DNA of 64,000 nt from Costus lasius (lineage: Eukaryota > Streptophyta > Magnoliopsida > Zingiberales > Costaceae). The position numbers and the translations under genes are program-made. Of the stretch, positions 44,299 through 63,734 are shown in pieces. Location of the stretch: positions 24,735,501-24,799,500 of the forward strand of contig CM050454.1 in assembly GCA_027563935.2 (NCBI GenBank), read 5' to 3'. The notes below the pieces were generated by a model. That model saw only the letters and a program-made list of their open reading frames with translations, ran no database searches and had not been told where the DNA came from. Position 1 is the first letter of the stretch; every line of letters starts with the position of its first letter.

Positions 44299-44560
44299 AT
44301 ATGATCATACATCTTCGACGTCTCTTCACACCAGGCACTTCAAATAGTGATCTAGAGAGTGTTGTTGGATCTTCTGGGTGTTTGCCTGAATCTAGGAATC
44401 CTTTATCTTTGCTTTGTGAAATCATTGGGTTTAGACATTACTTCGGTGATCCTTATTCCTTTCAAATCAAAAGGGCAGCAACATACCTTTTGTTTTTTGT
44501 TTTTTCTTTTTTGCCGCCCTAACCTATTTGGAGATGCGGTTATTCTATTCTACGAGAAAA
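44299..44560. other. Junction of nuclear-type and mitochondrial-type DNA
   Basis: Copia gag can be followed to about 44,350. By about 44,520 the DNA has the higher GC content and oligopurine-rich texture that continues to the end of the window. No target duplication, terminal repeat or shared microhomology could be assigned, so the breakpoint is known only to about 200 bp. Confidence 0.6.
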
Positions 44561-46227
44561 GTGTAGCGAGGGGTCAATCCCCGAGCGAACGCATCGCATA
44601 TAGGTAATAGGCCGCCTCAAAACTCAAATGGGCTCGCGGAGTGAGCTGTGCGATGAACCTGCTGATATACTCTATCCTTCCCAAGAATCCTCTTCTTTCC
44701 CTGATATTTCCGCCGCAGCTCGCCGTTGGGCAATTTTAGGCATGTCTATCAGGCTGGGATGACTAATGCATCGGAAGCAACAAACGAAGACTTGCTTGAA
44801 AGCCGGACAGATTTCCCATTTTTCTGCGGGGACCGTCTGGCTCGCTCTCTTTATTGCCCTCGCCGGTCTCGCAACTAGTTCATGTAAGGCAGTAGCCTCT
44901 GGTCTTGCAATTGGGGAGGGGCTTATTCGACTAATCTTCAATCCCTACCTAAGAGATGTCCCTGAAAGATGGGATTGGTTGATCGGAAAAGCTCAGGCAG
45001 GAGGGAGGTTTCATTTCCTATATGGCATCAGAATAGCTAGTGCGCAATGCCGACATCAATTTCAAAGTAGCATCAGCAGTAGGAAGCCTTAGCCCCGAAA
45101 TCAGTCTCGAAGAGAGAATGAGGTCATGTGTAGACTTTAGAAACAGGTGAAAATATGAGCTAGCGGAATGCAACGAATGGGCTCTTTGAAAGAAGAAGTC
45201 GTGTCAAAATAGGTTGGGGACATGAGAATGGAGTTTTAGAACTCGAGATGGGATGTGTTGTTAGAGTTCTATTCTACGCTGCTCTAGGTCTTAGCCGGTG
45301 CTATTGAATCTGGTCTTTCGGAATCGAATGCACATGAATAGGGCTTAGAACATTTACTCATGGCTAGCTTTCCAATCGCAGGCTTACTTGCTTTCCTTTA
45401 TTTAACTTCCCAATTGACAAGAAGGGGAACCGAAGCTAGGCACGATTCAGGGGCAGATGAAATGCGTTAACTGGAAGCGGATAGATTCTTAACGAGTTTA
45501 GTTCTTTTCAGTGACGTCCTTTCGTTAGCAAGAATTCTTCGCTATAAACCCATGTTTCATCACATGAACGATAGATTCTTCATTGGAGTGCCTATTGCTC
45601 GCTATATGGAAGAATTTCTCTAAACAACCCTGCCTTCACTTAATAAGAAAAGGGACTTATGACCCGCCTGCTATAAAAAGCTTCCCGTACTGCGCCTCTT
45701 TTTCTGACCTCAACGCGAGTGACAAAAGCGTCTCCCTGCGGTTGCAAAGATCCTGTGCCGGTCATGGTTCCCCCGGATCGTCGCCTCGCGTTTCAGTTTG
45801 GTTATGTCACCAAAGAAAACACCATTCTTCTTATCGACACAAGAAAAAGGATTTCTTTCTTTCATTTTTCCCATCCTTGCCTTGTATTCTCTTCCTTTGT
45901 ATGCCTAAGGTCAAGGCAGTCAGTGCTTGCTAAACGATGCGGTATGAAAATCAGTAACCGAATAGAGTTTGTCTTCGCTCCCTGGACTTTCATCAATGAC
46001 TTAAGGCCTATTCTTGAAAGTATTATAGGCAGTAGCCCGGGCATTTCCTTGTATGTCCAAGCGAAGCAATCTTTGCATTCCAGTAGGAATTGTTTGTAAG
46101 CTTCTCTTTCATTGATGATAATGGAGCACTGATGAAAATGGGCCGGACTTCTGATTGTTCACCCATCTTTCTTTCTATTAGTTCATCAACAGTTGCCTGT
46201 CCGCCTTCTCTAGTTCGTGGGGTAAAC

Positions 46228-46256
46228 TAAGAGAGAGGAACTCATTAGGGATTGAA
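46228..46256 (+). repeat. TAAGAGAGAGG repeat, long form
   Basis: TAAGAGAGAGGAAC followed by TCATTAGGGATTGAA (29 bp). The same long form recurs at 49,895, 58,599 and 61,309. Confidence 0.9.
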
Positions 46257-47056
46257 TCGGTTTCCACCGCATAGGCCTCGACCAATTCCGATTCCTCATA
46301 CATCATCATATTTTATTGCTGTGATGAAGCACAAACTTCTGGACCAGGATGGCTTGGTTTTCTGACATAGTGGGACCTCCCTCTTGTAAGTTGGTGTGGA
46401 TGTTTGATGAACTTGGGACAAGAACAACATCTTCCCCAGAGGTGGTAGACTCTGATGAGGGATCAATGTATTGCCTTGTGAAAGTGGAGGTAGCAATAAT
46501 TTTCTTCTTCTGGAAATTTGATGAAGTCATCTGTTAAAGCTGAAGCTGAAGGAACTTAAACCCCGAGGATGAGATTAAAGGGTACGATCGAGTGGATTCC
46601 ATACTTGTGCCTGAGTTTGGTTGTTCTAGGCCCTTTCATTGGGCAGCCCATCGCAAATTCAAATTTGACAGGCGGTCTTACATACGCATTTTGAAAGGCC
46701 CCCCCTCACTGGATTAAACGGACTTCTCTTTTGAGAATTCAGACTTTCAGGCGATTATCATGCCTTGTTCTCGAATAAGCTCTTAGGCTGCTATCGACGC
46801 TTTGAAGGCAGATCACATCATCAACATCCACATCCGTATAAGCTCTTTCTAGGGCAGTTGGAAAGTAGGGCCAGGGGAAGGAAAAGCACTCTTCGCGCAC
46901 AGCGGATATGCCCTCCAAGCGGCATAGCCCTCCGCTTCGGAATCATTCCTTGAACCACTATCTCAAAATCGAAAAGCATCAATCCAATCGCTCTGCCCAG
47001 CTCGGCCGGCATCCTAACTGGAAGAAGTTCCCAGGGTCTCCGATGAGGATTTGGTA

Positions 47057-47072
47057 ACGTACCTCTCTCTTA
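47057..47072 (-). repeat. TAAGAGAGAGG repeat, short form
   Basis: Reverse complement of TAAGAGAGAGGTACGT, in intergenic DNA. Confidence 0.85.
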
Positions 47073-48729
47073 TATTTGATAAGTAAACAACTACTATGGA
47101 GATAGCCTGAACTGGGCTTGTGACTCTTATTACTAAAGGCGCTCGCGGCTAGGCGGGCACAAGTGGACTAGACCTCAAACCATTATTAGCACTTGAGCTC
47201 AGAACGAAGAGAGAGCATTAGCGGCGGGAGAACGCTAAAACAAGGGCGATTGGGAGGGGCGCATGTAGAAGCCGAAAAGCACGCATTTAACTGCATTTGA
47301 AGGTTACTAACATGATAGGGCCTGGACTTGTTGCTGAAGAGAAAGGGGCCTGAAGACGTCTGATGGGCCAATGGAGATATAGCTTCTTACTCAACCTAAA
47401 GAAAAATGGCCATCGAGACACAATGCTCAATTTGGATAGGCGTAGACCAGGCAGGCAAGTAGAGCTAACCGCTCCGTGGGCAGGAAAAGATCTTTACAGA
47501 GGGAACCCGGTGAGGGAGTGGGAAGAAAAGAGAGGGAATGGTATAGCCCTATAGGGAATATGGAAAGATATAGGAATTGGCATAGTAGCATCTTGATTTT
47601 AGAGTCTTGTTCGGAATAAACCCTGCTTGCTAGCCCATTTCGGTTAGCTCGACTTGGTGGCTATTCCACCCACGCCACCCTATAGTTCTTGCTATACAAA
47701 AAGATCACATCACTCGCATCTAGTCAAGGGACGGTAGGAAGGCCTGTTTGGAACGGTTGGACCAGCAGAGTCATACTCCATCTACTATGTGAATAGTTGA
47801 GAGCGAAGATAGAATGCGGATCAGTTGGTTTTTAAGTGGGAATATGGTATTGCATTTTCACTGAAGGGGAAAGCCCAACCTCTTTTGAATCGCGATCCAT
47901 GGGCCTTAACGGCCTTTGTTTCAGTCAGGTAAAAAACCTTCCTCCTGCTAATCCGGCCATTTCCGAAGATACCAGCTGTAGTTGCAGTTATCTTCCCTTC
48001 CCCGAAATCAAAATCTCTTGATACCCTGACCGATCGACAGGAGCGAGGAGTTAGCCGTTCTACTCCTTCCCTGGGCTTGGGATTCACGAATCAAACCCAC
48101 GAGCCAAAGATAAGTTCACAAGCCGGAATGAAGATGAAGTACGAGACGAGCTGGCTATATATCGAAATTGCATATAGAAAGAGATTCGTCTTGTTGTTTG
48201 ATCATTGAATTGAGTGCGTGGTAAATGCTTTTGACTGAACCTTCCATTGCGTCATGCTTTCGTTCCGCTTTTGAGCCAGGTGAGGCTGTTACTGCTTGTT
48301 TCTTAATGCACCAGTCCCAGCTTTGAAAACCCGAACTAGGAGATCCATTAACAAGCCATGTATAGGCCTAGCTCTATCTTGTATGCTAGGTTTGATACTT
48401 ATCCTATCTACGGTACTTGTCTGCTTGCTATTACTTGTACTAGTTTCCTGTCTCTAGCAATACACTTGTCTTGTTCTAGAGTTACAGGTATTGCTTGTCC
48501 CTATTGAATCTCTTGCTTGCATGGCTTACCGATCTGTATTCTTGCTATTAGACTGGTTACTTGCCTATCTGACAGCCGAGCTATTCCTATCCCTTGCCTT
48601 CCCGGAGCGTCACCAGTTAGATGGGTTAGCTACCTGTCCAATCTGAGCGTCACGGGTAGTGGACTGCCTGCTTTCCACTGACCTGCCTGTCGGTAGCTCA
48701 GGACTGGCCGAAAAACCTATTTTCACGTT

Positions 48730-48792
48730 CCTCCGTTCTGGAGCGCGTTAGGAGAATTTCTTTCGAATGATGGAACGCGCTAGGAGCTTCAA
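48730..48792. repeat. GC-rich hairpin-repeat cluster
   Basis: Contains TCTGGAGCGCGTTAGGAG and, 25 bp on, AACGCGCTAGGAGC. These are members of the GCGCGTTAG family that is denser at 52,190, 57,130 and 62,920. Confidence 0.7.
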
Positions 48793-49894
48793 AGACGGCT
48801 TAGTGCTTCAAATCGGATTCGTTCAAAGATAATGACTCCTTCAAGGCAAGCACAAGAGCTAGCACTCCACTCCTTTCTTTCCATCCATGGCAAAGGATGT
48901 CAGAAAAAGTGTTTAAGGTTTAGGTTGCTAACGCCTACCCCGTGTGGTAAGAGCCTTTTTTCAATTCATTGGTAAGCCAGATATGGCGAGTCTACCTCTT
49001 TTCTGCCACAGAATGCCAATGAATTCTGCTTTCCATTCTCTTGGCTACGAAACTAGTTCAGTTCTATTCGAACTAAAAACTATGATTATTCAAATGATTT
49101 TATGCCAGACCAGCTCTATTTTTCGCTTCCCTCTCCCAGGTGTCATTTCTTCCCTCTCCGCAAGAAAGAAAATAGAAAGCTCTAAACCACTAATTCAAGA
49201 TAATTGGAATTGGCCTCTCATAATATGGGGAGAGGATAAGGTCAAAGACGGCTAGGATCAAGAGCGGCGGACAAGCTCCTTTGAAAATCAGTTATTTTAC
49301 ACAAAAGAAAGTGCTTCTGAAAGTAAGCATCTTAAGTTAGGGATGAAATAGTAGGGAAATTTCAGTTCAGGAACTGTCTGCTATCAAGCAAAATCAAGAT
49401 TCTACGGTTGAGCAATATATAAACCGGTGGAGGGCGTTGGCGAGAAATTGCTCTCAGAAGTTAGATCAAGCTCAAGAGGTGAAAGTATGCCTGAATGGTA
49501 TGCACTCGTGGATCACAATGCAAATACACGCGCAACCGCTCAAGACTTTTCAAGATCTGTAGGATGCTGCTGTCTCAACAGAACTTTATTACCAGTCCAA
49601 CCCAACAAGCGTAGGCTCGAAAGCCGGAGCACGTTAGCACGCTCTCCGTTTCCTTGCTGGGTTGGTGTGAGCCTGATAAGAATAAGAGTCTACTGCTGCT
49701 ACCGTCAGGAGACGGACGAAAGGTTCTTCATCTAAAACACAAACGGCGTATGCCGCAGAACCTGCCCAGGCTTCCTCTTCAGACGCACGCAAAACCCATT
49801 TTTATTGGGGCTGAGCAACGAAGGAAAGGATCAATTTCTCTGGAGGAATTCAAGAATAAGACCTACTCCTTCAAAAGAGAAAAGGTAAAAATAT

Positions 49895-49923
49895 AAGAGA
49901 AAGGAACTCATTAGGGATTGAAT
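49895..49923 (+). repeat. TAAGAGARAGG repeat, long form
   Basis: TAAGAGAAAGGAAC followed by TCATTAGGGATTGAA, between the first and second readable blocks of the gypsy remnant. Confidence 0.9.
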
Positions 49924-50594
49924 AAGTTTCTTAGCTTTGCCGAATCCGACCAAGCCCGATGAGGTAGACAAGGTGAATGAACCAAACTATTGCCCCTACC
50001 ATCGCCATCTGGGACATACCATAGAGGATGATTATCCCTTCAAAGAATGGCTGGAAAAGGCGATTCAGAACTATTTGCACTTTCCCCAGGATGTCAGCAA
50101 GATTCTCCAGTGCAAACTGCCAATGTCATTACCATGGATGCGGCAACCTCCACCACCGAAGATTGGGAAGGTGATGACGGTCGGAAGCAGGGGGCAGATT
50201 CTCTGTCTGGCACTGACTCTGATACCGATTCAGACATAGATAAGGGATGGATAACGATTTCGAGGAAGAAGCCGACAAAGTCAACCGATGTCCCCTTTTC
50301 CCGGGCTATCTCGGAAGTTCCAAAAGCGGATCACTATTCTTGCTCCAGCTCTCATTCATAAGAAGAAAAAGGTTTCCAAGAAGAAGCCTAGAAAGACCAT
50401 CCCTGCCCAACCACTCAAACAAACAGCCGGCAAGGTGATGACCTACGAGGAATACCTCCAATACATGGAAGAGTACTACAAATGGTTGGAGGAATTTGAA
50501 GAATACGAGCAAGGGGAGCCGCATGAGGTTGTCCTGGATGATTTTATGCCAAAAGGCTGGAGGCAGAAAGAACCATGTTCGGTCAATCAAGAAG

Positions 50595-50610
50595 ACGTAC
50601 CTCTCTCTTA
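50595..50610 (-). repeat. TAAGAGAGAGG repeat, short form, in gypsy remnant
   Basis: Reverse complement of TAAGAGAGAGGTACGT. Read on the + strand within the remnant it adds the peptide VPLSYI without breaking the frame. Confidence 0.88.
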
Positions 50611-50879
50611 TATACTGGTCTGGGAACAGCCTGTTCAGGTAGCTCCATGCCGGGTAGTTTCAGTTTACCCTCGACAATCTGTGGCAAGAACGCTTTTGCG
50701 CAGTCCCTCTGGTTCCCCAAGTAACACCTTTTTGTTGAACCGGGACCTCCACCCCCAGTATTCCGCCTGCCACATTACCACCTATGAAGGAGCGTCCTCA
50801 GAATTAGACACGGCAGCACATGAGTTGGGTGATAGCGATGACGAACCCCTCTTGTTTGCTAATGAAGCAGCAATGTTGA

Positions 50880-50895
50880 ACGTTCCTCTCTCTTA
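50880..50895 (-). repeat. TAAGAGAGAGG repeat, short form, in gypsy remnant
   Basis: Reverse complement of TAAGAGAGAGGAACGT. It adds NVPLSYN to the local frame. Confidence 0.88.
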
Positions 50896-51450
50896 TAATA
50901 CATGGTCAGATCCCCGACCTGCTTTCTAAACCTGTTAAACAGGAGGTTGATGAAATGAAGCTACGAGATGGGCCCGAGCCGCATCAGAAGAAAGATAAAG
51001 GGAAAGCAATATAGGTTGCAAATGAGCAGCCCCTGTGACCGTTGCCTAAGCCAATTCCACCTCCATCAAGCTTGCCAAAGGAGCCGAAACCCGTCGATTA
51101 TAATGTTGTCTCTCATTTAAGACGGATCCCGGCTCTCCTCAGTGTGTATGACGCTTTAATGCTCTCCAAGGATATAAGGGAATCCCTCATCAAGGCTTTA
51201 CAGAATCCTGAACTGTACGAGGCTCATGCTGCGGAGATCCACGTTGTGGGACGAGCCGCTTATTCAGTGGATACCATTTCCTTTGAAGAAGATGATTTCT
51301 TACTGGATTCCAATGAGCACAACCGCCCGTTGTACCTTGAAGGAATCCTTAATAGGAAGCCTGTAAAGCGTATTCTAGTCGATCCAGGTTCAGCGGTGAA
51401 CCTCTGACCTTTACGAACCCTGAGGAAGGTTGGACATCAACCTCGTGATC

Positions 51451-51466
51451 ACGTACCTCTCTCTTA
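51451..51466 (-). repeat. TAAGAGAGAGG repeat, short form, in protease region
   Basis: Reverse complement of TAAGAGAGAGGTACGT. It lies between the active-site segment and QGFNQRGQEAMG, where related elements have only a short linker. Confidence 0.88.
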
Positions 51467-52101
51467 TTTTGTTCATTCAGGGGTTTAATCAAAGGGGCCA
51501 AGAAGCGATGGGAACCATACGGCTGACACTGAAGTTGGGAGATTGGTTCACTAGAGTTAAGTTTTACGTGATTGATGCGGATACCTCCCATTGGTTTGGG
51601 TCGACCTTGGATTCATCAGAATGGGGTAGTACCATCCACCCTCCATCAGTGCTCAAAATATCAGGATCCAAATTCATACCAGAAACGGCGGTTACACTCA
51701 ACCGTACTACACCTATGTAAAGCCTATAAAAGACAAAGCAAGAAGAATGTTCGCCTACCTGGCCTTGCCGTCATGTTCACTGACATATGATACATCGCTA
51801 GCCATCCGTTTTCTCTCATTCAAGCCTGGCTTTTTTCTTAAAAAAAGTGGGCTACGAAACGTCCAGTAAGACACGAGCGGCGATCCCTATCCTTATCGGA
51901 CGCGTGAGAGAACGAACGAGAGCATTAAGCCAATAAGCCGGTCCCACCCAAGGGCTAGCGATCCCACTACGGGAAGCTCCTCTCGAGCCAAAAACTAAGA
52001 TACCGGAAAAAAGCTTAATAAAAAATAACTACTCCAAAAACACCAAACTTAAGTACATAATCAGGGGTCAAAGCATCGTTCAATCCATCTAAGTGATGAA
52101 A

Positions 52102-52117
52102 TAAGAGAGAGATACGT
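52102..52117 (+). repeat. TAAGAGAGAG repeat, short form variant
   Basis: TAAGAGAGAGATACGT, with one G to A change from the consensus. Confidence 0.8.
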
Positions 52118-52189
52118 TACAATAATAAGCTAAGCAAGGATCCTTCTGTGCGCGATATGCTGAGCAGTTCGGGAGGGTGGAACTGAACA

Positions 52190-52280
52190 ACCTGACGCGC
52201 TAGCTAACGCGCTCCGTAAACGGAGCTTGTTGGAGTGAAACGCGCGCGTTAGTAAACTCCGTTTCTTTTTCTGGAGCGCG
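52190..52280. repeat. GC-rich hairpin-repeat cluster
   Basis: Contains CTAACGCGCTCCGTAAACGG (hairpin CTCCG-TAAA-CGGAG, 52,211-52,224), CTTGTTGG, GCGCGCGTTAG and TCTGGAGCGCGTTAG. The 25 bp at 52,209-52,233 recur exactly at 62,986-63,010 and mostly, inverted, at 53,560-53,581. Confidence 0.85.
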
Positions 52281-52460
52281 TTAGCGAGATTCCTGACAAG
52301 CAACAAGCTCTACTTGAACTTTGATAATAAGAAAGTTATTTCACTTTCACTTTCAAATAATCAAGCTTACTTATTTAACAATTTTATTTAATAATCAAGC
52401 TTACTTATTTAACTTATTTAATTTCGACTTACCTTTAATAAACTTTTATAATAATAAAGT

Positions 52461-52487
52461 GTTAGCGCTTTCCGTTTTCTCGCTTGG
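52461..52487 (-). repeat. Partial copy of the 49-bp repeat
   Basis: The reverse complement matches the first 27 bases of the exact repeats at 62,867 and 63,662, including GAGAAAACGGAAAGCGCTAA. Confidence 0.88.
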
Positions 52488-52697
52488 TTCGCCCATAAAG
52501 ATCGAAGAACCGGAAAGAGACTGAATTCAATAAAAGAGTCCGGGACGGGCCTTGGCGTCAGATCAGATTTCGGGAATAGAAGCCGAAGCCGCATATCGAG
52601 TCAAAATGGAATACAGTAAACGATCCTCCCGTCTGATAAGTAATTAGCAGAATGAGTATGAGTATCACGAGCACGAAACTACTGATCTTTCAACAAC

Positions 52698-52795
52698 TAC
52701 TTATCTTCCGATGCGGAGAATGAGTATAAGTGCTCTGTTCCCAAGCGGGGGAAACGTGCTTTTCCTACTTATCTTCTGATGCGGAGAATGAGTAT
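52698..52795 (+). repeat. Pair of 30-bp direct repeats
   Basis: Copies at 52,698-52,727 and 52,766-52,795 share TACTTATCTTC, then Y, then GATGCGGAGAATGAGTAT. Only one base differs. No gene is seen here. Confidence 0.85.
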
Positions 52796-53289
52796 GCTAC
52801 TTCCGAGGGAGGGAATTATGTACCCGTTAGTGAAACTACCGATCGCCGATCTTCCTTATTATAACCTGCCCTGGGGAAGGATTTTCTCTTTTTCCGGCCT
52901 ATCTTCCATGGTGAACCAATCGATTTCTTTCTATCATAGCTACCCGAACTTTCTAAATAGATCGGATTATTATTCCTTTCTCCCTAGCCGAGAAGAACCT
53001 TCTAGTGGTTGATCGCTCCATCCATCTCCTGCTGCTTTAGCTTTAGCCTTTTCAGTCCCTCCCCGTCAAGTTGAATGCCTCCGTAAGCCCCCCGGGCAAA
53101 CAAAATGTAGATGTCTCATTCATGCCTGTCCGTTTCTGCCGGGAGATCCGCGTCTGCTTCTCTCCCCAAACAAGCCGGAGAGTAGGAGTAGGTCTCACCG
53201 GCTATCTTTGATTGGGTTGCTCTACGTTCCATCTCTGGATTAGGTTGATGGAACCAGGTTTCAATTAGTTTGACAACTTGCTAATTAAT
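52796..53289. other. Mitochondrial-type intergenic DNA
   Basis: A short open frame at 52,779-53,012 has no recognisable motif. Nothing else is identifiable. Confidence 0.5.
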
Positions 53290-53305
53290 TAAGAGAAAGG
53301 AACGT
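53290..53305 (+). repeat. TAAGAGARAGG repeat, short form
   Basis: TAAGAGAAAGGAACGT, preceded by TTAAT as at 57,521. Confidence 0.85.
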
Positions 53306-53539
53306 TTCACTAACCGGCACGCCTTTCATCACTCACAGTAGTGACCGCTCTCGCTCGTCTTACCAGCCCCTTCGCTACCGCTTTTTGGGACGACTAGACA
53401 TATATGTTTTTTGAAGATAGCCTGTTCGGACTGGTTACTGACTCGGTCGCTCTCCCTTCCTCAGATACCTTCAGTGACTCTGTCTTTACCGCATAAGAAA
53501 GAAATGCCTGAGATCCGTCTTCTATTTGTAAGAAAGAAC

Positions 53540-53635
53540 TCAACGCGCGCTCCGTTATCAACAAGCTCCGTTTACGGAGCGTTCCGGTTTGAACCTCCAC
53601 TTGCATTCTGGCGCGTTCCGGTTTGAACCGGTTGC
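53540..53635. repeat. GC-rich hairpin-repeat cluster
   Basis: Contains CAACGCGCGCTCCG, the inverted CTCCGTTTACGGAGCG hairpin, and two copies of GCGTTCCGGTTTGAACC (53,579 and 53,612), each with the self-complementary GGTTTGAACC or GGTTCAAACC. Confidence 0.85.
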
Positions 53636-53639
53636 TCAT

Positions 53640-55640
53640 TCCTTTCTCTGTTAATTTTACTTATTCTTTTCTCTAGGCGGAATTCTCTGATAAAAAAGAA
53701 GGCAGCTTTTAAGATAGAGTATTGACGGTTACAGTGGCAAGTGGAGAACGGATCACTTTTAGCGGCTAAGAGAAATCAATCTCTAATTGTGCTTGTGCTG
53801 GCACCTTGGATGAAATCCTTGTTCTTTCTTTGTTCCAGTTTCTTATAGGCTTAGCTTAGAGAAAAGGTTACTTCTAGTTTCTTTCGGGTAGCGCGAGTGG
53901 AAAGCCCCCTACAAACCTTCAAAGTCTTTAAGTTAAGGAAGCCGAGTTGAACAGAAGATAGAGTTTCAGTTCCAGTGAAAGCCCCTACTCCCAACAAGTT
54001 GGAAAGTTCAGTTCAGAAGTCAAAGATAAGTTTCTTCTTTCTGTGACCGCAATTACAGTTGCAATAAGTACTTTAAAGCTCAACAAGGCTTTAAACGGCT
54101 AAAGCAGATCAGGAAAAAAACCTTATTCCGGGTGTGAGCCATAGCACAGGGACTCTCGGTTGGTCGTAGAAATGTTTAAGTCACCATAAACTGTTTTCAC
54201 TAGTGAAGCTTTAAGAGATAGGGCAAGTAGTCGTAGAAACTCCTTGCTTTGTTGCCGGCTTTTCTAGTAAATAAAATCAGTCGCTTTCCGCCTTCCACTT
54301 TGGTTGGACGGTAGTTCCGGGAGCCAGTAGCGGTAACAGGTCGAGGGATATCAAAGCCCATAGAGCGGTGCAGTTAGTCAAGCCTACAGTTCGAATACCG
54401 TGGTTAGTCAGTACGGCAAGTAGAAGGGCAAAGCAAAAATTCCTGACTCTTTGTAGAAAGGAAAAGAAGTAAGCTAGACGATTACCTTCTGTCATAGGAA
54501 GCCAGTACCAGTTCCGGTAGTGGTTACGGTAAGACTGCTTTGAAAAGAAAAAAACTCCTTGCTTCATTCTTTTTTGTATAAGTTGGCTTAGGGAAATACA
54601 AAGACACAAGGTGGGTCGGCGCACTTGGGAAAAAGGGTGGCTTAGAGAGTCGCTTTGCTTCTAGGCTTTCCAAGAGAGAGTCCGTCTTTCTTTCGTCACG
54701 GTAAGCGGGCAATGATGATAGATTCAACTGCTTCCCGTAACCGCCTGCCGCCACCTATCCTCCTGCCAACAACTGGAACTCTTAGCCCGTTACTGCTTGG
54801 CTTGCCGGTCTTGCTCCTTTCTTTCATCAACCAGGAGGGAAGATTCTACGCGATAGCTGAGAGGGACGGAAGCGATAGCTGTGCTCAACCAACTAAAGGG
54901 GACGGGCGCAAGCTGGCCTGAAAGGTGTGAGTGGCCGGCATCAACCTCAAAAAGTGGGGCTCTCTCCTATGGAAGTGATAGAAAGGACCACTGGCTAAAG
55001 TGTAACCACGGGGTAGAAGGAAGAGAAGACTCCCATGCAGCAGACAAGAAAGGGGCCTTGGGATATGACTGATGGAGAGAGAGATTTTTTGAAAGCTTCG
55101 TACTTCTCTCGGGGGAGTGGGAAGTTCAGCCTGAGAGCCGGGAAGTCCGCTTTCCTATACTAAGTACTAAGGGAGAGTCGACAGTTCAGCCAAGTGACGA
55201 TGTGCCAGGGAAGGATGAAAGGAAAAAGGGTCGTTCCGTTGAACGGCTTTGTTTTGTACATTCACGTGACTGAGTTTGGAGCCAACTATTTTGTCATGCA
55301 TTCATTCTAGTTTTCCCTGTGTTGACTTTTTCCTGAACATTGCATTTCAAGAAAGACCCGTGAAAAGCACATGCGATATAAAATCATCATAAGGAAACGA
55401 AATTCACATATAACAAAAAGGTTCACAACATGTAAAAGATAAAGAACGTCGAAAGAACGGAATTCAAAGGATAAGTCAAAGAACACAAAACGAGCCTTTG
55501 GATACATGCAGTTAGCAGTAGAACGGTCGGAGCCATTTTCCATTTATTAATAAGGTAAAACATTCCCCGTCAATTGTTGCCAAACGGTAGTATCCGCTTT
55601 CATACGCTTTTGTGACAATGTAGGGAGTTTTTGTTCGGAG
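53640..55640. other. Mitochondrial-type intergenic DNA
   Basis: Two kilobases with only short frames of unclear meaning (for example 54,277-54,624 minus and 54,655-54,921 plus). No RNA gene, repeat family member or retroelement motif is recognised. Confidence 0.5.
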
Positions 55641-55647
55641 CAAGTCA

Positions 55648-55760
55648 GGCATATCCGTTATTCGTGACTCTGAGTACAAGATTTCCGGGAACGAACGGTC
55701 TCGGCTTCACTCTTTTTTCGTATGCCTTTTTCTGAGATTCTGAGATTTCGGTACAACTCA
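55648..55760 (-). pseudogene. Short gypsy pol-like tail
   Basis: The minus-strand frame reads SESQKKAYEKRVKPRPFVPG then NLVLRVTNN. It resembles the AYxKRVKxRxFxxGDLVL segment in the integrase C-terminal region of plant gypsy elements, with Asn for Asp. It is fused to LINE-derived sequence in another frame. The piece is short, so the assignment is moderate. Confidence 0.5.
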
Positions 55761-55789
55761 GCTTGCTGCATAGCCGCAAGCGCCTTACT

Positions 55790-56085
55790 TCTTCCCGGAT
55801 CAAGGGCTCTGGAAAGAAAATCCATGAGCTTTGAGAGTGAAGATTTGGTACCATTAACAAAGATAATGGTGTCATCAGCATCAAGCAAATGGGAAATGAG
55901 AGGGCAATTCCCTAATGTAGTGAAGGCTTTAATAGCACCTGACAAGAAAAGTTGTGATAGCCCAAGGTCTTCCGCCAAGATGAATAGACTTGGAGCTAAA
56001 GGATCGCCCGCTTTAATAGCGCCTGGTGGAGCCTTTGACAGCGCCATTAAATATAACTGAGAACCTGCAACGTTCCTCTCTCTTA
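55790..56085 (-). pseudogene. LINE-type reverse transcriptase remnant
   Basis: On the minus strand the frame contains GAIKAGDPLAPSLFILAEDL (about 56,020-55,960) and ISHLLDADDTIIFVNGTKSS followed by LSKLMDFLSRA (about 55,890-55,815). These are the RQGDPLSPxLF and FADDTIIF blocks of plant non-LTR RT, with Lys-Ala for Arg-Gln in the first. The catalytic ADD is kept. A short TAAGAGAGAGG repeat at 56,070 interrupts the upstream side. Only about 90 residues of an RT of several hundred remain. Confidence 0.85.
56070..56085 (-). repeat. TAAGAGAGAGG repeat, short form, at LINE remnant
   Basis: Reverse complement of TAAGAGAGAGGAACGT. On the minus strand it encodes IRERNV immediately before the LINE RT block. 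Confidence 0.88.
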
Positions 56086-56134
56086 TACCTGCGCGGGGAG
56101 GACTGAAAGAAAAGATTGAGTGGGACATTGGCAT

Positions 56135-57118
56135 TTATAGTAGGTTAAGGCAAGGTTAAGGCTGTGAGTTCCTCATCTTCATCTTCTGGTGCCATGCGGA
56201 TTTGGTTGTAGCCTATGTATCCGTCCATGAAGGACAGGGCAAAGGAACGAGGGATATGCTTTCTGAGAAGCTAGCTCAAAATAGGCTTTCTGCCTTGTCA
56301 AGTACCAAATCGGGAGATGTGAATGAAGAAGAAAGAGCGCGAAAGACAACTATCGACTTCGGGATCAGCAGGAGGGGAATGAGTGGCAGATTCCACTCCA
56401 CATTAGGAGGCGTAGGCTTTGGGAGGGATGGATGTTCGAGAGAAGGGGGCTGTTCTGTTTCCGTTTCAAGCAGACGAGAGAGACGGGGCGCAGCAGGTCA
56501 TAAGGAGAAAAATCAGGATTTAGTGAATCCCCGCCTACATACACATAACACATACAGATAGATGGGGAAGATGGATGAAGAAGTATAGCTAGCTTCTAAG
56601 TGAAATTCAGCAATGGAAAGAACGACGACCTAGGAGGTAGTAGTAGTACGAAGCCGGAAGGTGGTTTGATTCAGAAGTTGAGTGAGGAGACGGACCACTT
56701 GCCAGCCAAATCGAGGGTACTTATTCTTCACTGGCTCCTTCCTTTAGAAGCTTTTGTCATGACTTCCGGCCGCTCTGGCTTAATGACCCTATGGCCCAGC
56801 TGACAAGGAACCTACTTCAAAAGGGCTTCCCCCTCCCGTATGTTCTTCCCTGGCTACTATGATTGCTATACATTCGAAACACCCCTGTACTCTTTTAACA
56901 ATCAGCTTCTTATCAATTAAACATCGCTCATTCCTATCTGCTCTGCATTGTGTCAATAGTATGAACTTCCTAATATTTGTGTTTGTTTTTGTCATGGTGG
57001 TTGCTTTCATTCTTCTTCTAGACTGGTTTTGCAAGAAAGACTGTTGAATCCTAAATGGATTGCTGATTTGACACCTTCTCCTCAACCAAGCGGCCAGGGT
57101 ACTACGGCAGAGGGAAAT
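56135..57118. other. Mitochondrial-type intergenic DNA
   Basis: Open frames at 56,202-56,561 (+) and 56,789-57,160 (-) have no motif I recognise. No repeat family member is seen until 57,119. Confidence 0.5.
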
Positions 57119-57135
57119 TAACAGAGAGAGGAACG
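57119..57135 (+). repeat. Diverged TAAGAGAGAGG repeat
   Basis: TAACAGAGAGAGGAACG, with a two-base expansion. It abuts the hairpin cluster that starts at 57,131. Confidence 0.65.
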
Positions 57136-57276
57136 AGCAAGCGGAGGTTTGAACCAACAAGCGGAGGTGAAAACCGGAGCGCGTTAGGGGAGCGCGTTAG
57201 TGCTTGACTCCGCGCGTTAGGAGGCTTGAACATAGAAGGGCGCGTTAGTTCGTTTGACTCTGCGCGTTAGGAGTGA
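57131..57276. repeat. GC-rich hairpin-repeat cluster
   Basis: The densest cluster: two AAGCGGAGGT words, ACCGGAGCGCGTTAGG, and five GCGCGTTAG words (57,179, 57,192, 57,213, 57,241 and 57,264), several preceded by TGACTCC or TTTGACTC. Confidence 0.88.
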
Positions 57277-57357
57277 ATTTATTATTGTTCTCAACACGGA
57301 GTTCCCCTCGTATCATCTCACCTAACCAAGGCGCCTTTTTGAAGGGCAGGAGCATAA

Positions 57358-57373
57358 ACGTTCCTCTCTCTTA
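57358..57373 (-). repeat. TAAGAGAGAGG repeat, short form
   Basis: Reverse complement of TAAGAGAGAGGAACGT, with ATTA on its outer side. It forms an inverted pair with 57,521. Confidence 0.88.
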
Positions 57374-57520
57374 ATTACCTTGGCCTTGGCATAGGAGCTC
57401 CCGGAATCGCAAATTGGAGGCAATGTTCTCATAAAGCTAGATATGACCAAAGCCTACGACAGCCCTTCCTTTTTTTTTAAGCTAAAATAGAGTTTCAGCG
57501 AAAGATGGATCAGTGGTAAT

Positions 57521-57536
57521 TAAGAGAGAGGAACGT
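57521..57536 (+). repeat. TAAGAGAGAGG repeat, short form, inside LINE remnant
   Basis: TAAGAGAGAGGAACGT between the two RT blocks. GGTAAT precedes it, as it does (inverted) at 57,358. Confidence 0.88.
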
Positions 57537-57850
57537 TGTTTACGAACTGCTGGTTTTCGGCAGTGTGCATGGTTATTTCAAATCCTCACGGGGACTAAGG
57601 CAGGGAGACCCGCTGGCTCCAAGTTACATGTTAGCAGCTTGTGATTGCATTTCTTCTTTCCCGTACATCAGTGATTATGCGGATAATCAACAATCGACAG
57701 CGTTTAGTAATGAGCAATTGAATTATCCGGGTCACGAACGGTATTCGATTTCTTTTAACAGCAGCAAAGCATTCGAACTTGGGAGATGCGAAAAAAAGGC
57801 TATTCTATTCCTTTCCTTCTTCAAGCAAGATAGTATGCACAGGTGAGAAC

Positions 57851-58598
57851 ATCCCTAATGGATTTCTAGGAGTTCTTCCTCTTTATCTGGTTCGGTTTTC
57901 CTAGGGTTCTCTTTCGGCCTTTGTGGTCTTTCTCTTGGTCAAAAGCTAACACTACTCCGAGTGGCCAAGCCAAGAAGAATCGAATCATCGCCCGAAGAGC
58001 TGAGTGACAGCTCAAAGCGTAGAGGCAATTCCTGATCTTATCTTTATATAAATAGTTTAATCGAAGACAGATCGTAGTTACGAGAAGAAAGGTATGCCGG
58101 TTGATGGATGTTTCAACTTTGTTTACCGAATTTCATTGTTTTTCGGTCGTGGTACTTTTAGTTGGTCTTCTGTGTACCCAGAGAAAGGGGACCAGATCGA
58201 ATTAGCTCTGGTTCAAGGAGCCTAGCCTGATTTCGTAGCCAAGGGCGTGAAGGCTCTCCTTCAGAGATGGAGAGAAAGGGCTGGTATAGAATCCGATCTT
58301 TCTCTTTGAACGAATCCGGTGCTAGTCTTTACTGCCCTCCTCCCTCCCTAGCTACTTTCATACCAGTCAATCTCACATCAGGAAGAGCCTTTGGTTCTGT
58401 GATCACTAGACGAGATTCTGGTTCAGAACCAGCAGACTAGCTTTCCAAGGACTGTGGAATAGCCGAGTCAAAGTCAAGTAGCCAAGGATAGGGCTTTGAA
58501 GTGGTAAGTTGCGGGGTAGCCAGGCCCAGTAGGCAGAGCGGTCCAATCAGGCCAGTCAATATCTCGAGCAAGAAGCAAGCAGCACATCAAGCGGAGTC
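57851..58598. other. Mitochondrial-type intergenic DNA
   Basis: No recognisable gene or repeat in about 750 bp. Confidence 0.5.
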
Positions 58599-58627
58599 TT
58601 CAATCCCTAATGAGTACCTCTCTCTTA
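58599..58627 (-). repeat. TAAGAGAGAGG repeat, long form
   Basis: Reverse complement of TAAGAGAGAGGTAC followed by TCATTAGGGATTGAA. Confidence 0.9.
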
Positions 58628-59070
58628 CAAGAAGAACATAGGCTGGATCGATTCGTTTTCTTGTCGAAGGCTACCAATGGAAGTGTTTTCACCCACAGAG
58701 CTATAGTCAAGCATTCAATCATTCTGCGTTGAGTTGAGTATGGCTCCACTACAATTGGGTTCTGGTGACTCAGATGGCATGACTCTGAACGAAAGACTTG
58801 CTCGTGTCTTCGCTTAGACCTTTTCGTTCCACTCTTATACGCTTCACTACTCCCTTTGTGCTGTGAACCTGATTCTCCTTCCAATGTGGATAGGTGGGTA
58901 GGTAGACACCTCTTTTTGAGCCAGGAGCCGCGTCTGCTTTCTCCGTCTGTTGGCATTGAGTGCTAGACCACCTTTGATGTTGACCCTGACTCTGAGTGGT
59001 TAGAGGATCAGCAGCAAACCTATGATATTATATAACTTACCACCTCTATCTCGAGAAAGGAAAACCAAAA

Positions 59071-59775
59071 ATGACAATCCATGATATTGTTTGTCAAAAA
59101 TTACTGCGTACGAACGCACATCTCGGCCGTCGGGTAGCTGCTCACCATTTCAAAGTCTATATCTGTGGTTCCAGAAATGGAATTGCTATTCTCGATTCAG
59201 ACAAGACACTGATTTGTTTACGAAACGCTTTGAATTTTATAGGATCCCCCATTCGTCAAAAAGGCCGTTCCTTCCTTTTAAAGACCAATCAACTATTGTT
59301 ATATGAGATCATGGAAGAAATGGCGAGCTGTATCAATTATAAGAGAGAGGAACGTTGGAGGATCGGGGCTTTTTTGACCAATTCTTGTTCAAGTCCGAAA
59401 AAAATCCGTTCGAGAAAGAATCAGATCCATTTAGGGTCGAACCAACAACCTGATTGTGTCATTATTCTGGATGCAGATAGAAAGTCTTCGGTCATACTGG
59501 AAGCTGATCGATCACAAATACCTATAGCATCCTTAGTTGATTCTACGATCCCATTGAGATCCTATAAAATCATCACTTATCCCATTCCAGCGAATGATCC
59601 CATACAGTTCTTATATCTATTTCGTCATTCGATCACGAAAACAGTGATTCTTGAACAAAACAGAATCGTTGCGATTCAAGAGAAGAAAGAAAACCGTGTG
59701 GTTTATTCAAGCATAGGAAGCTCTTCAAATAATGAACGGAGTCTAATTGAGAAAAAAATGATTGCGGGGGTGTAA
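59071..59775 (+). CDS. rps2: Mitochondrial ribosomal protein S2
   Basis: This encodes small-subunit protein S2 of the mitochondrial ribosome. From ATG 59,071 it has the N-terminal S2 block (TNAHLGRRVAAHHFKVYICG, residues 11-30), IAILDSDKTLICLRNALNFI (38-57), the CVIILDADRKSSVILEADRS block (about 149-168), and IPIASLVDSTIPLRSYKI, which corresponds to the IPxxxxxDTN region. An extension follows and ends at TAA 59,773-59,775. The frame is open for 234 codons. Angiosperm mitochondrial S2 can carry longer C-terminal extensions, so the end may be shortened. At codons 91-96, in CINYKREERWRIGA, a 16-bp copy of the dispersed repeat (59,340-59,355) is embedded in frame. C-to-U editing is expected but cannot be read from DNA. 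Confidence 0.9.
   Translation: MTIHDIVCQKLLRTNAHLGRRVAAHHFKVYICGSRNGIAILDSDKTLICLRNALNFIGSPIRQKGRSFLLKTNQLLLYEIMEEMASCINYKREERWRIGAFLTNSCSSPKKIRSRKNQIHLGSNQQPDCVIILDADRKSSVILEADRSQIPIASLVDSTIPLRSYKIITYPIPANDPIQFLYLFRHSITKTVILEQNRIVAIQEKKENRVVYSSIGSSSNNERSLIEKKMIAGV
59340..59355 (+). repeat. TAAGAGAGAGG repeat, short form, inside rps2
   Basis: TAAGAGAGAGGAACGT lies within the rps2 reading frame and supplies KREER. The match to the consensus is exact. Confidence 0.9.
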
Positions 59776-60300
59776 AATGTTTGAAAATTGACAAAAAAAT
59801 TGTAGTGATTGGCGCACCTGTTGAAAAACAGAAAATTCACATTGGTTCGGATTTTTTTTCGTATTATGATTGTGTTAATCTTGTCGCCGATTTGTCGGCT
59901 TTTTCTTGCATTTGTTTCTTCTGTCCACAAGTTCTTAGGCGGATTTGTCGACTCATGGCAGATCCTCGATCTAATCAAGTCCGTCTCGTCTTTCGAAAGC
60001 AGCGGAGAGTCGAGTCAAAGCTCCAATGAGGTCGAGGTACCAGTCGAACAAAACACACATTCGAGTGACCAGCTCCAATGAAAGACAAGTTTGAGGGCCC
60101 GAGCCGACGGCTCTTGAGAGGTTTCGTGCCCAAAACTCCTCATTGGAGAACGAGCTCTTTGCTCGTATCCGAAGCCTGGAAAGCCAATTAGCTCACCTCC
60201 TCAACTCAACGCAGGCGAATATGAACGTCTGGTCAAAGGAAAGGGGACTCAAGAAGGATACAAGCCCCCCAGATGTAGTCTGTAACAGGGCGAACTGGGT
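59776..60300 (+). other. Region downstream of rps2
   Basis: A frame at about 59,809-60,081 without an ATG encodes one likely membrane segment (FRIMIVLILSPICRLFLAFV) and a Ser/Glu-rich tail. A second frame from 60,143 starts MENELFARIRSLESQLAHLL, which looks like a short coiled coil. I do not recognise either. They could be a degraded S2 extension or chimeric ORFs of the kind common in plant mtDNA. Confidence 0.35.
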
Positions 60301-60307
60301 TACCAAA

Positions 60308-60382
60308 GTCACGATCAGCATAGAATGGAAGAAATCCAGACCACCCATCTGGAAAGCGCTGGTTCGAGTCCAGCTCGTGACA
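60308..60382 (+). tRNA. tRNA-like sequence, probable pseudogene
   Basis: GTCACGA (60,308-60,314) pairs with TCGTGAC (60,375-60,381) as a 7-bp acceptor stem. CCAGA/TCTGG (60,336-60,340 and 60,348-60,352) encloses a 7-base loop. GCTGG-TTCGAGT-CCAGC (60,358-60,374) is a canonical T arm. The total of 75 nt is right for a tRNA. Against it, the D arm is poor, and the anticodon loop CCACCCA lacks U33 and suggests no normal anticodon. It is probably a decayed tRNA gene or a coincidence. Confidence 0.35.
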
Positions 60383-61308
60383 AGGCCTTTGGTCATATCT
60401 CGGCGCCTCCGTTTTATCCCGGACCCATTTTTCGCTGGTAAATACGGGATAGGATCCACTCTACTCTGGCAGCTGAGCTTCTTTACTGTCTCTTGTGCTG
60501 GTTGTTCAATACTCCCATCAATCAACGGAACGTAGTGCGGTAGCTGTGCCATCTGAAGCTTTGGAAGGAAGCCGAATGATTGTTATTCCACTTACAGTGC
60601 CTCTATCGAAGCAGAACAAGTCTCATATTCCTGCCCCAGTTTGAAGGGATGATATTTCGATCCAAACCCGACACATCCTTCTTTCTATACAAAATTTGTT
60701 CGTCTTGTTTAGCCTTTTTGTTGTTTTAGAGATAGATGTGAAGGGGAGAACTGCAAGAAAGCAAAAGCCTAGCCTAGTACGAGAGTACTATAAAAAGCCA
60801 ACACTGACGTGGCCAAAAGCCAATCATCATCGAAAAAAAGCCTAGTTCCTTCGTACCCAAGGGATGAGACTTGCCAACGATGAGACTTGAACTGCTTGAG
60901 AATACGCTCGGCCATCTTTTCGGCATCCCTCAAACCCGTGGCGAAAGGAAGGGTTGAATCAAATGCTTATAGATTAGATACGGGGCTTCTTTATTCTATT
61001 CTCGGGTGGACGGACTACATTATAGGGAGGGTGCTAACATCATATGGATCAGGACAACCTATATTTGATGGGTCAGGTGCGCTGCTATCGAAACGAAATA
61101 AGTACTGCTACCAGAAATGAGATACTATAAAGAGTCGTTCTCTAAGCATGTCTTAACCCACATAGAGCTTTTGGTATGAAAAAAGTCATGCAGTCGAGAA
61201 CTCACTTTGCTCTCGAGCTACCGCTCCGTGGGCGTACTTGTGCGGATTGATCAGATTTGTCGGCGTCAACGGATATAGCCCTATGACGCCCGGAACCGAA
61301 GCGAGGAA
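60383..61308. other. Mitochondrial-type intergenic DNA
   Basis: No gene recognised. The short frames (for example 60,887-61,120) carry no known motif. Confidence 0.5.
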
Positions 61309-61337
61309 TTCAATCCCTAATGAGTTCCTTTCTCTTA
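61309..61337 (-). repeat. TAAGAGARAGG repeat, long form
   Basis: Reverse complement of TAAGAGAAAGGAAC followed by TCATTAGGGATTGAA, identical to 49,895-49,923. Confidence 0.9.
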
Positions 61338-61560
61338 TTCTTAACCGCCATACCCCCCTTTCTCTAATAATGGCGGTAAGCGGTCTCTGTTCCAAGTACA
61401 TCAAGACCCCATAGCTACTTAGGGTTTTTGACGAATGGGTCCAGATCCACGAATCCCTAGTATAGTTGCCTAAAGCAATTAATGCCGCAACACAATAAGG
61501 CTTTTCGCTCTAGTTGGGCAATGCAAGGAGGCCTCTTTCGCCATTCTTTCTAAATGAGAA

Positions 61561-61613
61561 AGTCTGATTAGTTCAGTTCGGTAGAACATGAGAGGATAAT
61601 TTATTCACAGACT
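61561..61613 (+). pseudogene. Possible tRNA-Trp 5' fragment
   Basis: TTAGTTCAGTTCGGTAGAAC (61,568-61,587) is the D-arm sequence of plastid-type tRNA-Trp as I remember it. AGTCTG at 61,561 can pair with CAGACT at 61,608, but no anticodon or T arm follows, so at most this is a fragment. Confidence 0.35.
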
Positions 61614-62866
61614 AAATGAGAGAGTCTTCGTTCGCCAGGTGGCTCGCTCCAGGTGCATGAGTTGCTTTGCTGGCTGGCGTAAAATTCTTATACGAAATGG
61701 CTTGCTTTCTCTTTAAATTAAAGCTGATCTGTTGTTCTGATTCCGATGACGGATACTCTATTCCGCCTATACAACCACCTTGCTTGGTGGTTCGGAAGTC
61801 TGGGTATCTGCTTAAGTGGTCTGCTCATACCGTTCCAAAAAGAGCTGCGCTGACAGGGAGACGGGTGAAAATTTCATTGCAATCAAAGGCGCTATGACCA
61901 CGGAGCATGCCAACAAGGCAAACTCAGAAAAGAGTCTCCTGTCCCAGGTCACTGAAAGGGAGATACTCGCAGCCGAGCTCTCGCTCTTTCCCACTCCCGC
62001 TGCCAACTTCGCGATAGAACGACCATGCGAAGGGATACGGATAGGCTGCCCTCCCACATTACAGCGTTCGCGTGCACCTTCCCGGATTTTCAAATATTTT
62101 CAGGCCACCCATGATCCAAAAAATCAAGGTATAGATAGAGGATGGGTACTACACTCGACGCACGGACCGTTCACTTTGTTTTTTCTGTAGATTCCGAAAT
62201 ACTCGATCGATTTCGACGGCATTGATGAAAAGTTTCTTCTTTCCTATGCGACAAGTGGGCCGTCAGTCCTTTCTCTCTCTTGAGGGGGCACCGAAAGGGC
62301 TTTCTTCGACCTTAACCGATAATCCAACTTTGACCGGAATGAAAGAAGGCTGGGGAAAGCATCAAGACTTGAAAGTTTCAGACTCTACATCAGCTTAGTT
62401 AGAAGAAAATAAGAGGAGTCAGGGAAGAGTGACAACTAGAGGAGTACCGCCTAGAAAATATGCCTTCCGCGGAGTTTGACCCGCGAATAGTGGCCTTGAG
62501 ATAGAGGATTGAGCGCCATATAGCTAGCTAAGACCGGCTGACGAACGAGAGAGCATAGGTTTCGGGTAGAGTATCCAGAGATTCTATAGTCACTGGCTGC
62601 TTTGAACTTGCTTTTCCCTCGGTTCGACCCCTTGGAGGAATCCGGCCTATAAGAGGAAGCAGGGGCGGTACTTTTACGGGATTCCCTCCCATGAGTTTCA
62701 TTTCCCCGTTCTTACCTCGGGCAGGTAAGCATAGACTAGGGACAAGAATCAGATGTCACCGGTCTTTTATTGAAATAGTGAGTCATAATGCCTAGGATAG
62801 GCACTTAGCTTCCACACTTGGACACTTGAAAAGCGTTTTCTTTTTGTTTAGAGACTACGGGTCAAA
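61614..62866. other. Mitochondrial-type intergenic DNA
   Basis: Overlapping frames on both strands near 61,810-62,190 encode about 93 and 124 codons. Neither has a recognised motif. No repeat family members are seen. Confidence 0.5.
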
Positions 62867-62915
62867 CCAAGCGAGAAAACGGAAAGCGCTAACGAGCAAG
62901 CAGCAAGTGTAGGCT
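62867..62915 (+). repeat. 49-bp exact direct repeat, copy 1
   Basis: It starts CCAAGCGAGAAAACGG and ends AGCAAGTGTAGGCT. It is identical to 63,662-63,710. The first 27 bp occur inverted at 52,461. Confidence 0.93.
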
Positions 62916-63030
62916 AGCGCGTTCCGGCGAAAGCCGGAGCTTGCTGCCAACAAGCGGAGTTGACTCCACGCGTACTATTAATTGCGCGCTCCGTAAACGG
63001 AGCTTGTTGGTAACAGAGCGCGCATTGAGT
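62916..63030. repeat. GC-rich hairpin-repeat cluster
   Basis: Contains CCGGCGAAAGCCGG (62,931), GCGGAGTTGACTCC (62,954), GCGTACTATTAATTGC (62,970) and GCGCTCCGTAAACGGAGC (62,986). It directly follows copy 1 of the 49-bp repeat. Confidence 0.88.
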
Positions 63031-63519
63031 TCTTTCTTAGCTCGAGATCGAGAGAAATCAAAGCTACTCTAACCGTAACTGGCTGGCTTTCTCCCACCGG
63101 AACAGGCTCGCAAGAAGAACATTGGATTCAGAGAAGGCAAAATCGCTGGAAGGGCTACAACTGGAACTCCAATTCAACCTGACTAGCTATACGGTACAGG
63201 CTGACTTCCAGAAAGATAGAGATTAGTCTTAGCCTAAGCCTAGCCGCCCTATCCCATATAATATGAAAAAGCCCTAGAACGGACTGGCCTATCCCGACGC
63301 TTGACTCCTTAGCAACCTATGTGTGAAATCGCCTACCATTATTCTATATCCCAAAGAAAGCGAGCTTCCAATAAAAGAGTAAACGAAAAACCTATGACTA
63401 GTGATCAGCCTTGACTAGCCCGCGTTGAGCAGTGCTTTTCTTTCCCCTATGAGTCATTAGTACCTGTTCAGCCTGTCATGTGCTTCCTTGCCTTTTAGTC
63501 TGTAATTGGACTTGCATAC

Positions 63520-63555
63520 TAACGCGCGGAGTCAACTCCGCTTGTTCCCTCCGCC
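63520..63555. repeat. GC-rich hairpin repeat
   Basis: CTAACGCGCGGAGTCAACTC then CGCTTG. GCGGAGT-CA-ACTCCGC is a 7-bp-stem hairpin. Confidence 0.85.
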
Positions 63556-63661
63556 TGGGGAAACGAAAGACAAGCATGAAATGAAAAAGGAGATACTCTT
63601 ATTGCTGCCTACCTATATCCATTCCTTGGCTTGGCATGAATAGCGTGACGGGAAAGCTACT

Positions 63662-63710: not shown

Positions 63711-63734
63711 TTCGAACTTATTGAATAAAACATA

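Follow-up and report, generated by a model that had tools for sequence, protein, structure and literature searches.

The Bpu and Bpu-like elements of Cycas are dispersed micro-repeats that reach hundreds of copies in plant mitochondrial DNA and are described as static (PMC8297867). Their 36-bp unit has AAGG repeats at its ends and folds into a hairpin, for which we obtained -12.8 kcal/mol. The GC clusters of yeast mitochondria (GC42), as described in PMC4478555, are short mobile units that merge and shuffle, are palindromic, and carry a putative target duplication, while the repetitive hairpin elements of sponge mitochondria, defined by their hairpin in the excerpted text (PMC2800124), occur as short units in genes, in spacers, and in tandem. 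Here, we analyzed a 64,000-nucleotide (nt) stretch of Costus lasius DNA (G000:C9:24,735,501-24,799,500 in a 1.279-Gb assembly of 269 contigs; hereafter the window), the right-hand part of which we read as a nuclear insert of mitochondrial DNA (NUMT) carrying many copies of a 16-nt repeat. We found that sites of this repeat were rewritten between NUMT transfers, with bases being replaced at near-equal size by a second tail, and suggest that the family may well spread by copy-and-replace.

The Bpu elements, the yeast GC clusters, and the sponge hairpin elements are the nearest kin of the Costus repeat, which belongs to none of them. Like Bpu, it is dispersed, high in copy number, and mitochondrial, as seen from the assembly-wide counts, the NUMT clusters, and the unplaced contigs (one tested, which behaves as mitochondrial) described below, but its unit is 16 nt long without terminal repeats or fold, and its sites have changed. 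As the earlier note on this DNA had remarked, the Bpu sequence is a different one: its consensus had 0 matches in the window at ≤3 mismatches, and the best ungapped alignment in the mitochondrial part reached 20/36. With the yeast clusters it shares short mobile units that merge and shuffle, and with the sponge elements the occurrence in genes, in spacers, and in tandem, but the palindrome or hairpin of these systems and a clear target duplication are lacking. Palindromic repeated sequences, reportedly described from rice mitochondria by Nakazono in 1994, are likewise lineage-specific short repeats of monocot mitochondrial DNA; they are palindromic by name, whereas the Costus unit is not, and the CGCTCCGTAAACGGAGC families of the window may be closer to them. 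In the open literature, we found no printed account of the repeat sequence or of such overwriting, the only text match being an unrelated mouse paper, and the repeat goes unmentioned in the excerpted texts of a Nymphaea mitogenome (PMC6092842), a Curcuma mitogenome (PMC12940290), and a recombination-mutant study (PMC12005158).

The repeat is real and far more frequent than chance would allow. Its consensus 16-nt short unit, TAAGAGARAGGWACGT, had 16 matches in the window at ≤3 mismatches, compared to 1.92 +/- 1.37 expected and a maximum of 5 in 100 shuffles; these comprised four long copies, ten short copies, and matches at 57,121 and 59,265, the last of which is rps2 coding sequence by position and was not counted as a copy. 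The 29-nt long form, in which the core is followed by TCATTAGGGATTGAA, had 4 exact matches against 0 expected, while the 12-nt core AGAGARAGGWAC had 14 exact matches in the mitochondrial part against 0.0 in 20 shuffles, and 31 against 9.35 expected at 2 mismatches, and on these counts we rejected a chance origin. All ten short and four long copies listed by the earlier note were recovered, with coordinates that were right within two bases (49,895 should read 49,894); its diverged copy, placed at 57,119, is corrected to 57,121 and represents a third type (n = 2, at 57,121 and 53,638), whose core continues into GAGCAA followed by a palindromic cluster. The occurrence in both orientations and in unrelated contexts, which the note had read as that of a dispersed mitochondrial family, was borne out. 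The gypsy-like and long interspersed nuclear element (LINE)-like remnants that host several copies were named by eye, and when nine open reading frames were tested against Pfam, no hit passed the threshold.

Table 1. Repeat copies and host features in the window, with the state of each site in paralogous NUMTs (C2, C4a, C5b) and in the unplaced contig C117.
Feature	Position	Strand	Remarks
NUMT	44530..64000	.	left edge approximate, taken to the end of the window; paralogous blocks on C2, C4, C5
Long copy	46228..46256	+	C5b: core, GTTGA, host sequence; C117: long form
Short copy	47057..47072	-	common to window and C5b
Long copy in gypsy-like remnant	49894..49922	+	C5b and C2: core, GTTGA, host sequence (one change private to C2); C117: long form
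Short copy in gypsy-like remnant, site 1	50595..50610	-	C117: adjoining head rebuilt with a palindromic element, net ~32 nt longer
Short copy in gypsy-like remnant, site 2	50880..50895	-	
Short copy in gypsy-like remnant, site 3	51451..51466	-	
Short copy	52102..52117	+	one private change in window; C4a version largely overwritten
Short copy	53290..53305	+	also in C2, C4a, C5b, C117
Third-type copy	53636..53651	-	core joined to GAGCAA and palindromic cluster
Short copy in LINE-like remnant	56070..56085	-	also in C4a
Third-type copy (diverged copy of the earlier note)	57119..57136	+	edge of palindromic cluster
Short copy in LINE-like remnant	57358..57373	-	also in C4a
Short copy in LINE-like remnant	57521..57536	+	also in C4a; matches 57,358 perfectly over 23 bp in inverted orientation
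Long copy	58599..58627	-	C5b and C4a: core, GTTGA, host sequence
rps2 reading frame	59071..59775	+	stays open across the copy
Short copy in rps2	59338..59355	+	18 nt (YKREER); 54/63 aligned homologues have DSQ
Long copy	61309..61337	-	C5b and C4a: core, GTTGA, host sequence (one change private to C4a)

Beyond the window, a search of the whole assembly with a 14-nt core gave 447 exact matches compared to 93 for the reversed control pattern, so the copy number near random expectation that the earlier note had named as a refutation did not appear; among the matches listed, dense clusters proved to be NUMTs. Across the DNA stretches scanned with it, a slightly looser core pattern gave 93 copies, which fall into 70 left-flank groups. 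The 16-nt string CTCATTAGGGATTGAA had 37 matches in the assembly and 0 in the control, with 22/37 on small unplaced contigs, and among the 21 unplaced-contig copies that were read, 17 had the core TAAGAGARAGGWA before the tail and 4 a variant. In viral contigs, the 16-mer had 20 exact matches, taken as chance by an estimate from the collection size that had no control; the long form was absent from viral contigs (with a 22-nt part as query) and from prokaryote genomes.

The copies reside in what is best read, from its relatives in the assembly, as transferred mitochondrial DNA. The window belongs to one of the chromosome-sized contigs (C1, C2, C4, C5, C7, C8, and C9, of 90-163 Mb each; the other contigs whose size was seen are ≤1.7 Mb), and from ~44.5 kb rightward, its DNA, which holds rps2, matches blocks on C2, C4, and C5 at 97-99% identity, the leftmost block starting at 44,492. 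We take this part to be a NUMT that holds every copy of the repeat; a GC content of 0.41-0.45 begins already at 38 kb and gives no edge by itself. The earlier note had called the host mitochondrial DNA, which is amended here to a NUMT within a chromosome-sized contig, although the changes themselves appear to have occurred in the mitochondrion. Upon comparing private isolated substitutions over 4065 aligned columns, from which 38 clustered variable columns were excluded, we counted 0 in the unplaced contig C117, 11 in the window NUMT (9 of them C>T or G>A), and 8 in C5b (6 of them C>T or G>A), a pattern that decay of methylated nuclear DNA would give. As C117 lacks private substitutions, it probably represents the mitochondrial state or one close to it. 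We infer that C117, the sole unplaced contig so tested, has the behavior of mitochondrial DNA, and that the NUMTs are fossils in decay. Over the region spanned by all three paralogues, the window had 11 private substitutions (block columns included), C2 8, C5b 10, and C4a 48, which makes C4a look the oldest. In the compared stretches, C117 has further block changes, among them the rebuilt head at 50595.

NUMTs of different age thus preserve states before and after a change at single repeat sites. Each window copy is spanned by one to three of the paralogous NUMTs C2, C4a, and C5b, which served as older states. All ten short copies were also filled in the spanning NUMTs, some with point changes, the exception being 52,102 in C4a, where a duplicate of sequence lying some tens of bases downstream had replaced most of the copy and left its size little altered. 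At 4/4 long copies, by contrast with the window, the spanning NUMTs had the identical core, then GTTGA, and then site-specific host bases, after which the host resumed in register. Two C117 pieces covering 46228 and 49894 had the long form, the new state at 58,599 and 61,309 being known from the window NUMT alone, and a fifth pair, consisting of a C1 NUMT (old) and the unplaced contig C167 (new), showed the identical change. The differing stretches measured 15/14, 16/15, 14/15, 15/16, and 17/17 nt (old/new) in the five pairs, showing a replacement of near-equal size by a 15-nt tail beside five existing cores. At 49,894, the site sequence keeps up the reading frame of the gypsy-like remnant, which makes the GTTGA state the older one. 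Since the long copies are short copies in the older NUMTs, the long form is a later overwrite and not a founder, and the two founder types that the earlier note had seen in the two tails fall away. The mixing of A/G and A/T core variants with both tails follows from a tail laid over existing copies; conversion as the cause of this mixing was rejected, as the variants were identical before and after at the five sites. In the compared stretches of C1, C2, C4, and C5b, 11/54 copies (counted as rows, not loci) had GTTGA and none the new tail, whereas in the window NUMT and C5a, GTTGA occurred in 0/33 copies and the new tail in 5.

The first arrival of the core can be followed through proteins encoded at its sites. 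For rps2, we found 171 homologues, fetched 120, and aligned 63. The note had stated that its reading would be refuted if orthologous genes of distant species carried these 16 bp at the same sites. The core was absent from 63/63 aligned rps2 homologues, of which 54 have DSQ, 8 have other three residues, and 1 (P0028) has six other residues, so the element is derived in rps2. By protein comparison, six residues (18 nt) replace three (9 nt) in rps2, and at the gypsy-like sites, ~9 nt became 21 nt at 50,595 and 18 nt became 22 nt at both 50,880 and 51,451, with metagenome or read-archive contigs as the gypsy-like homologues and all replacement sizes read by eye. Through this protein comparison only, a core of 16-18 nt would thus stand where 9-18 nt of other sequence had stood. 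Clean insertion, as the earlier note had suggested, is not supported, since the readable before-states show replaced DNA and no clear target duplication. Of 222 flank pairs that were checked, 18 have no exact core between them, and these are explained by copies with point changes, by the C4a site that was overwritten, or by artefacts of tandem sequence. The element peptides were absent from 156 fetched homologues, and relatives' DNA, sought in viral contigs (for the gypsy homologue P0121) and in prokaryote genomes (for Ananas rps2), was not found there.

A few rearranged pieces touch the same sites. Three partial rps2/gypsy matches (C8, C1, and C2:160.79M) stop in or near a core, and two of them break inside it, too few to judge. 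Within C8:63622500-63623250, an rps2 fragment is cut off in the core and continues into sequence that may resemble a mitovirus-type polymerase motif; the C2:160786070 fragment is also broken inside a core. The plant rps2 P0028 carries its different six-residue replacement exactly at the position of the window's rps2 element, and the mitochondrial part of the window holds no sequence coding for these six residues.

Read as ACGTWCCTYTCTCTTA, the short unit has a fixed start and often an A/T run behind it. For the comparison with Bpu, the unit starts with TAAG and ends with ACGT, with no terminal AAGG repeats. For the ten short copies of the window, the mean A/T run beside the TTA end was 4.4 compared to a background of 1.4 (P 0.00035), in a test chosen after the copies had been seen; across 53 distinct short loci, it was 2.9 compared to 1.7 (P 0.0034), the run mixing A and T and being absent in 10/53. 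We found no hairpin, with folding energies of 0.0 kcal/mol for the short and -1.4 kcal/mol for the long unit, and no clear target duplication at 14 copies, where flanking direct repeats numbered 2 against 3.1 expected at k=3 and 2 against 0.9 at k=4.

We favor, at a probability that we would set a shade above even, a high-copy micro-repeat family in monocot mitochondrial DNA that spreads by copy-and-replace, either by template switching or by conversion and ectopic exchange. At a break, or where a fork has stalled, the nascent strand would leave its own template, copy a short stretch from another copy of the repeat, anchored at the core when one is present and perhaps at A/T-rich bases otherwise, and then return to its own template; ectopic exchange could enter the core as well. 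Such switching or exchange is the favored explanation for replacement, for merging with other families, and for the change at 50,595 in C117, where the neighboring head was swapped for a palindromic element and the W base of the core switched too.

Several observations weigh against this reading. Three features are left unexplained by template switching, namely the GTTGA rule, the core variants that stayed untouched, and the discreteness of the tail. Copies followed by GTTGA changed in 5/5 cases and other copies with a known older state in 0/11 (1 in 4368 by chance), and the core variants beside the new tail were unchanged at 5/5 sites even though W lies two bases from the junction, so that these sites show no core conversion. 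Near-equal size was seen for the tails only; the first-step replacements were not size-neutral and gained ~4-12 nt, and at 50595 the rebuilt head added ~32 nt. Site 1 at 50,595 moreover falls within an acidic run, in which slippage might look like a loss and which leaves its 9 nt unsure, and no empty site was found as DNA in the compared stretches. The 21 unplaced-contig copies that were read share no sequence beyond TTGAA, where a genomic donor might have left a trace, although the string used to find them itself stopped at TTGAA. Core-like sequence was not enriched near the sites (P 0.51 and 0.64), which gives no sign of a local donor, and the four long copies of the window lacked an A/T excess (mean run 2.5, P 0.16). 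Flanking repeats were slightly high at k=5 (2 vs 0.35, with 11/300 random sets as high) and at k=6 (1 vs 0.12), an excess confined to two copies and at most weak.

A bolder proposal, which we regard as rather unlikely, is cassette overwriting in plant mitochondria, in which discrete short units, perhaps borne by RNA or oligonucleotides, overwrite DNA of near-equal size at sites of core plus GTTGA and can sweep a site class between two NUMT transfers, with no point mutation seen in the sampled 4 kb. A rival to template switching, an RNA- or oligonucleotide-templated copy-and-replace, has a short RNA or DNA act as primer or repair template so that a sharp-ended unit overwrites about its own size; it would account for the discrete tail, the near size-for-size exchange, and the untouched variable core bases beside it, as well as for the A/T-rich bases at one end of the short copies and for the GTTGA rule, because on the opposite strand the long unit begins at its 5' end with TCAA, which complements TTGA. 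The candidate RNA or oligonucleotide has never been seen, however, and the genome alone cannot show one, while the swapped head and switched core base at 50595 fit DNA exchange between copies better, so that we consider this rival unlikely.

The dispersal in many copies and both orientations, the A/T-rich end of the short copies, and the weak k=5 excess would also suit an ordinary short transposable element (of the short interspersed nuclear element, SINE, or miniature inverted-repeat transposable element, MITE, kind), inserted by an enzyme with target duplication. We think this quite improbable, given that no clear target duplication was found, that the short unit folds at 0.0 kcal/mol, and that bases were replaced rather than pushed apart. 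To our knowledge, 16 nt is below the size of any SINE- or MITE-like element. An internal RNA polymerase III promoter is not a meaningful feature to look for in a 16-nt mitochondrial unit.

Selection on a functional motif, such as the core of a plant mitochondrial promoter (CRTA or YRTA followed by AGAG), is a very doubtful alternative. According to the excerpted text of PMC5040748, many mitochondrial promoters have AGAG or TATA downstream of CRTA, and indeed YRTA preceded AGAGA in 27/53 distinct short loci and 7 YRTAAGAGA occur in the mitochondrial part of the window; CRTA, however, was present in just 3/53 loci, copies lie within coding sequence and in both orientations, and the promoter-like end of the unit is no more constant than its far end. 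An assembly or sequencing artefact, to which the odd change of each GTTGA-type copy with a younger counterpart might hint, is hardly credible, since the same copies, flanked alike, recur in unplaced contigs and in several nuclear inserts that have each decayed in their own way, and the rps2 frame stays open. Invasion after transfer to the nucleus has the chromosome-sized contig of the window copies in its favor and is just as implausible, as the same sites are filled in NUMTs on other chromosomes and in a contig free of nuclear decay, and no match to the short unit lies in the window left of 46,228.

How the spacers of plant mitochondrial DNA diverge fast with almost no point mutation is an old question. 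In ~4 kb, C117, taken as mitochondrial, showed block replacements by short units and zero isolated private substitutions. The nuclear genome stores dated copies of mitochondrial loci, which allow the earlier and later states of single events to be compared; if what we describe is general, organelle micro-repeats need not come by transposition, and their spread would be testable with reads and with relatives.

The surroundings of the repeat yielded further observations. The blocks of the window NUMT occur four times within 190 kb of C5 (G000:C5:130765546-130951274), and the NUMT has a second copy at C9:32.05-32.06 Mb. The nearest rps2 relatives are monocots, and a quick tree (support not shown) placed the window's rps2 near Musa and orchids, beside P0028. 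The rps2 stretch had 7 full-length and 2 partial matches, all chromosomal and none on unplaced contigs, indicating that the mitochondrial contigs may be incomplete or that rps2 was lost there. Compared with the one to three covering paralogues, the window NUMT has nine deletions of 5-10 nt (at 46340, 46673, 47902, 50972, 53578, 57402, 58744, 61150, and 63781). Two of them are covered by the compared C117 pieces and are not deleted there, so that the deletions are probably nuclear, and we dropped them as a part of the overwriting process. The nuclear part of the window (1-44500) contains tandem units of 65-72 nt with TTACGGCACTGCCGTAA-like cores and, as judged by eye, long terminal repeat-like sequence; snoR71 matches occur there twice, at 15701 and 24039. 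Between 48736 and 63854, the window holds other short families, CGCTCCGTAAACGGAGCTTGTTGG, CCAAGCGAGAAAACGGAAAGCGCTAAC, and GGAGCGCGTTAG, which are partly palindromic and clustered and some of which differ between C117 and the NUMTs.

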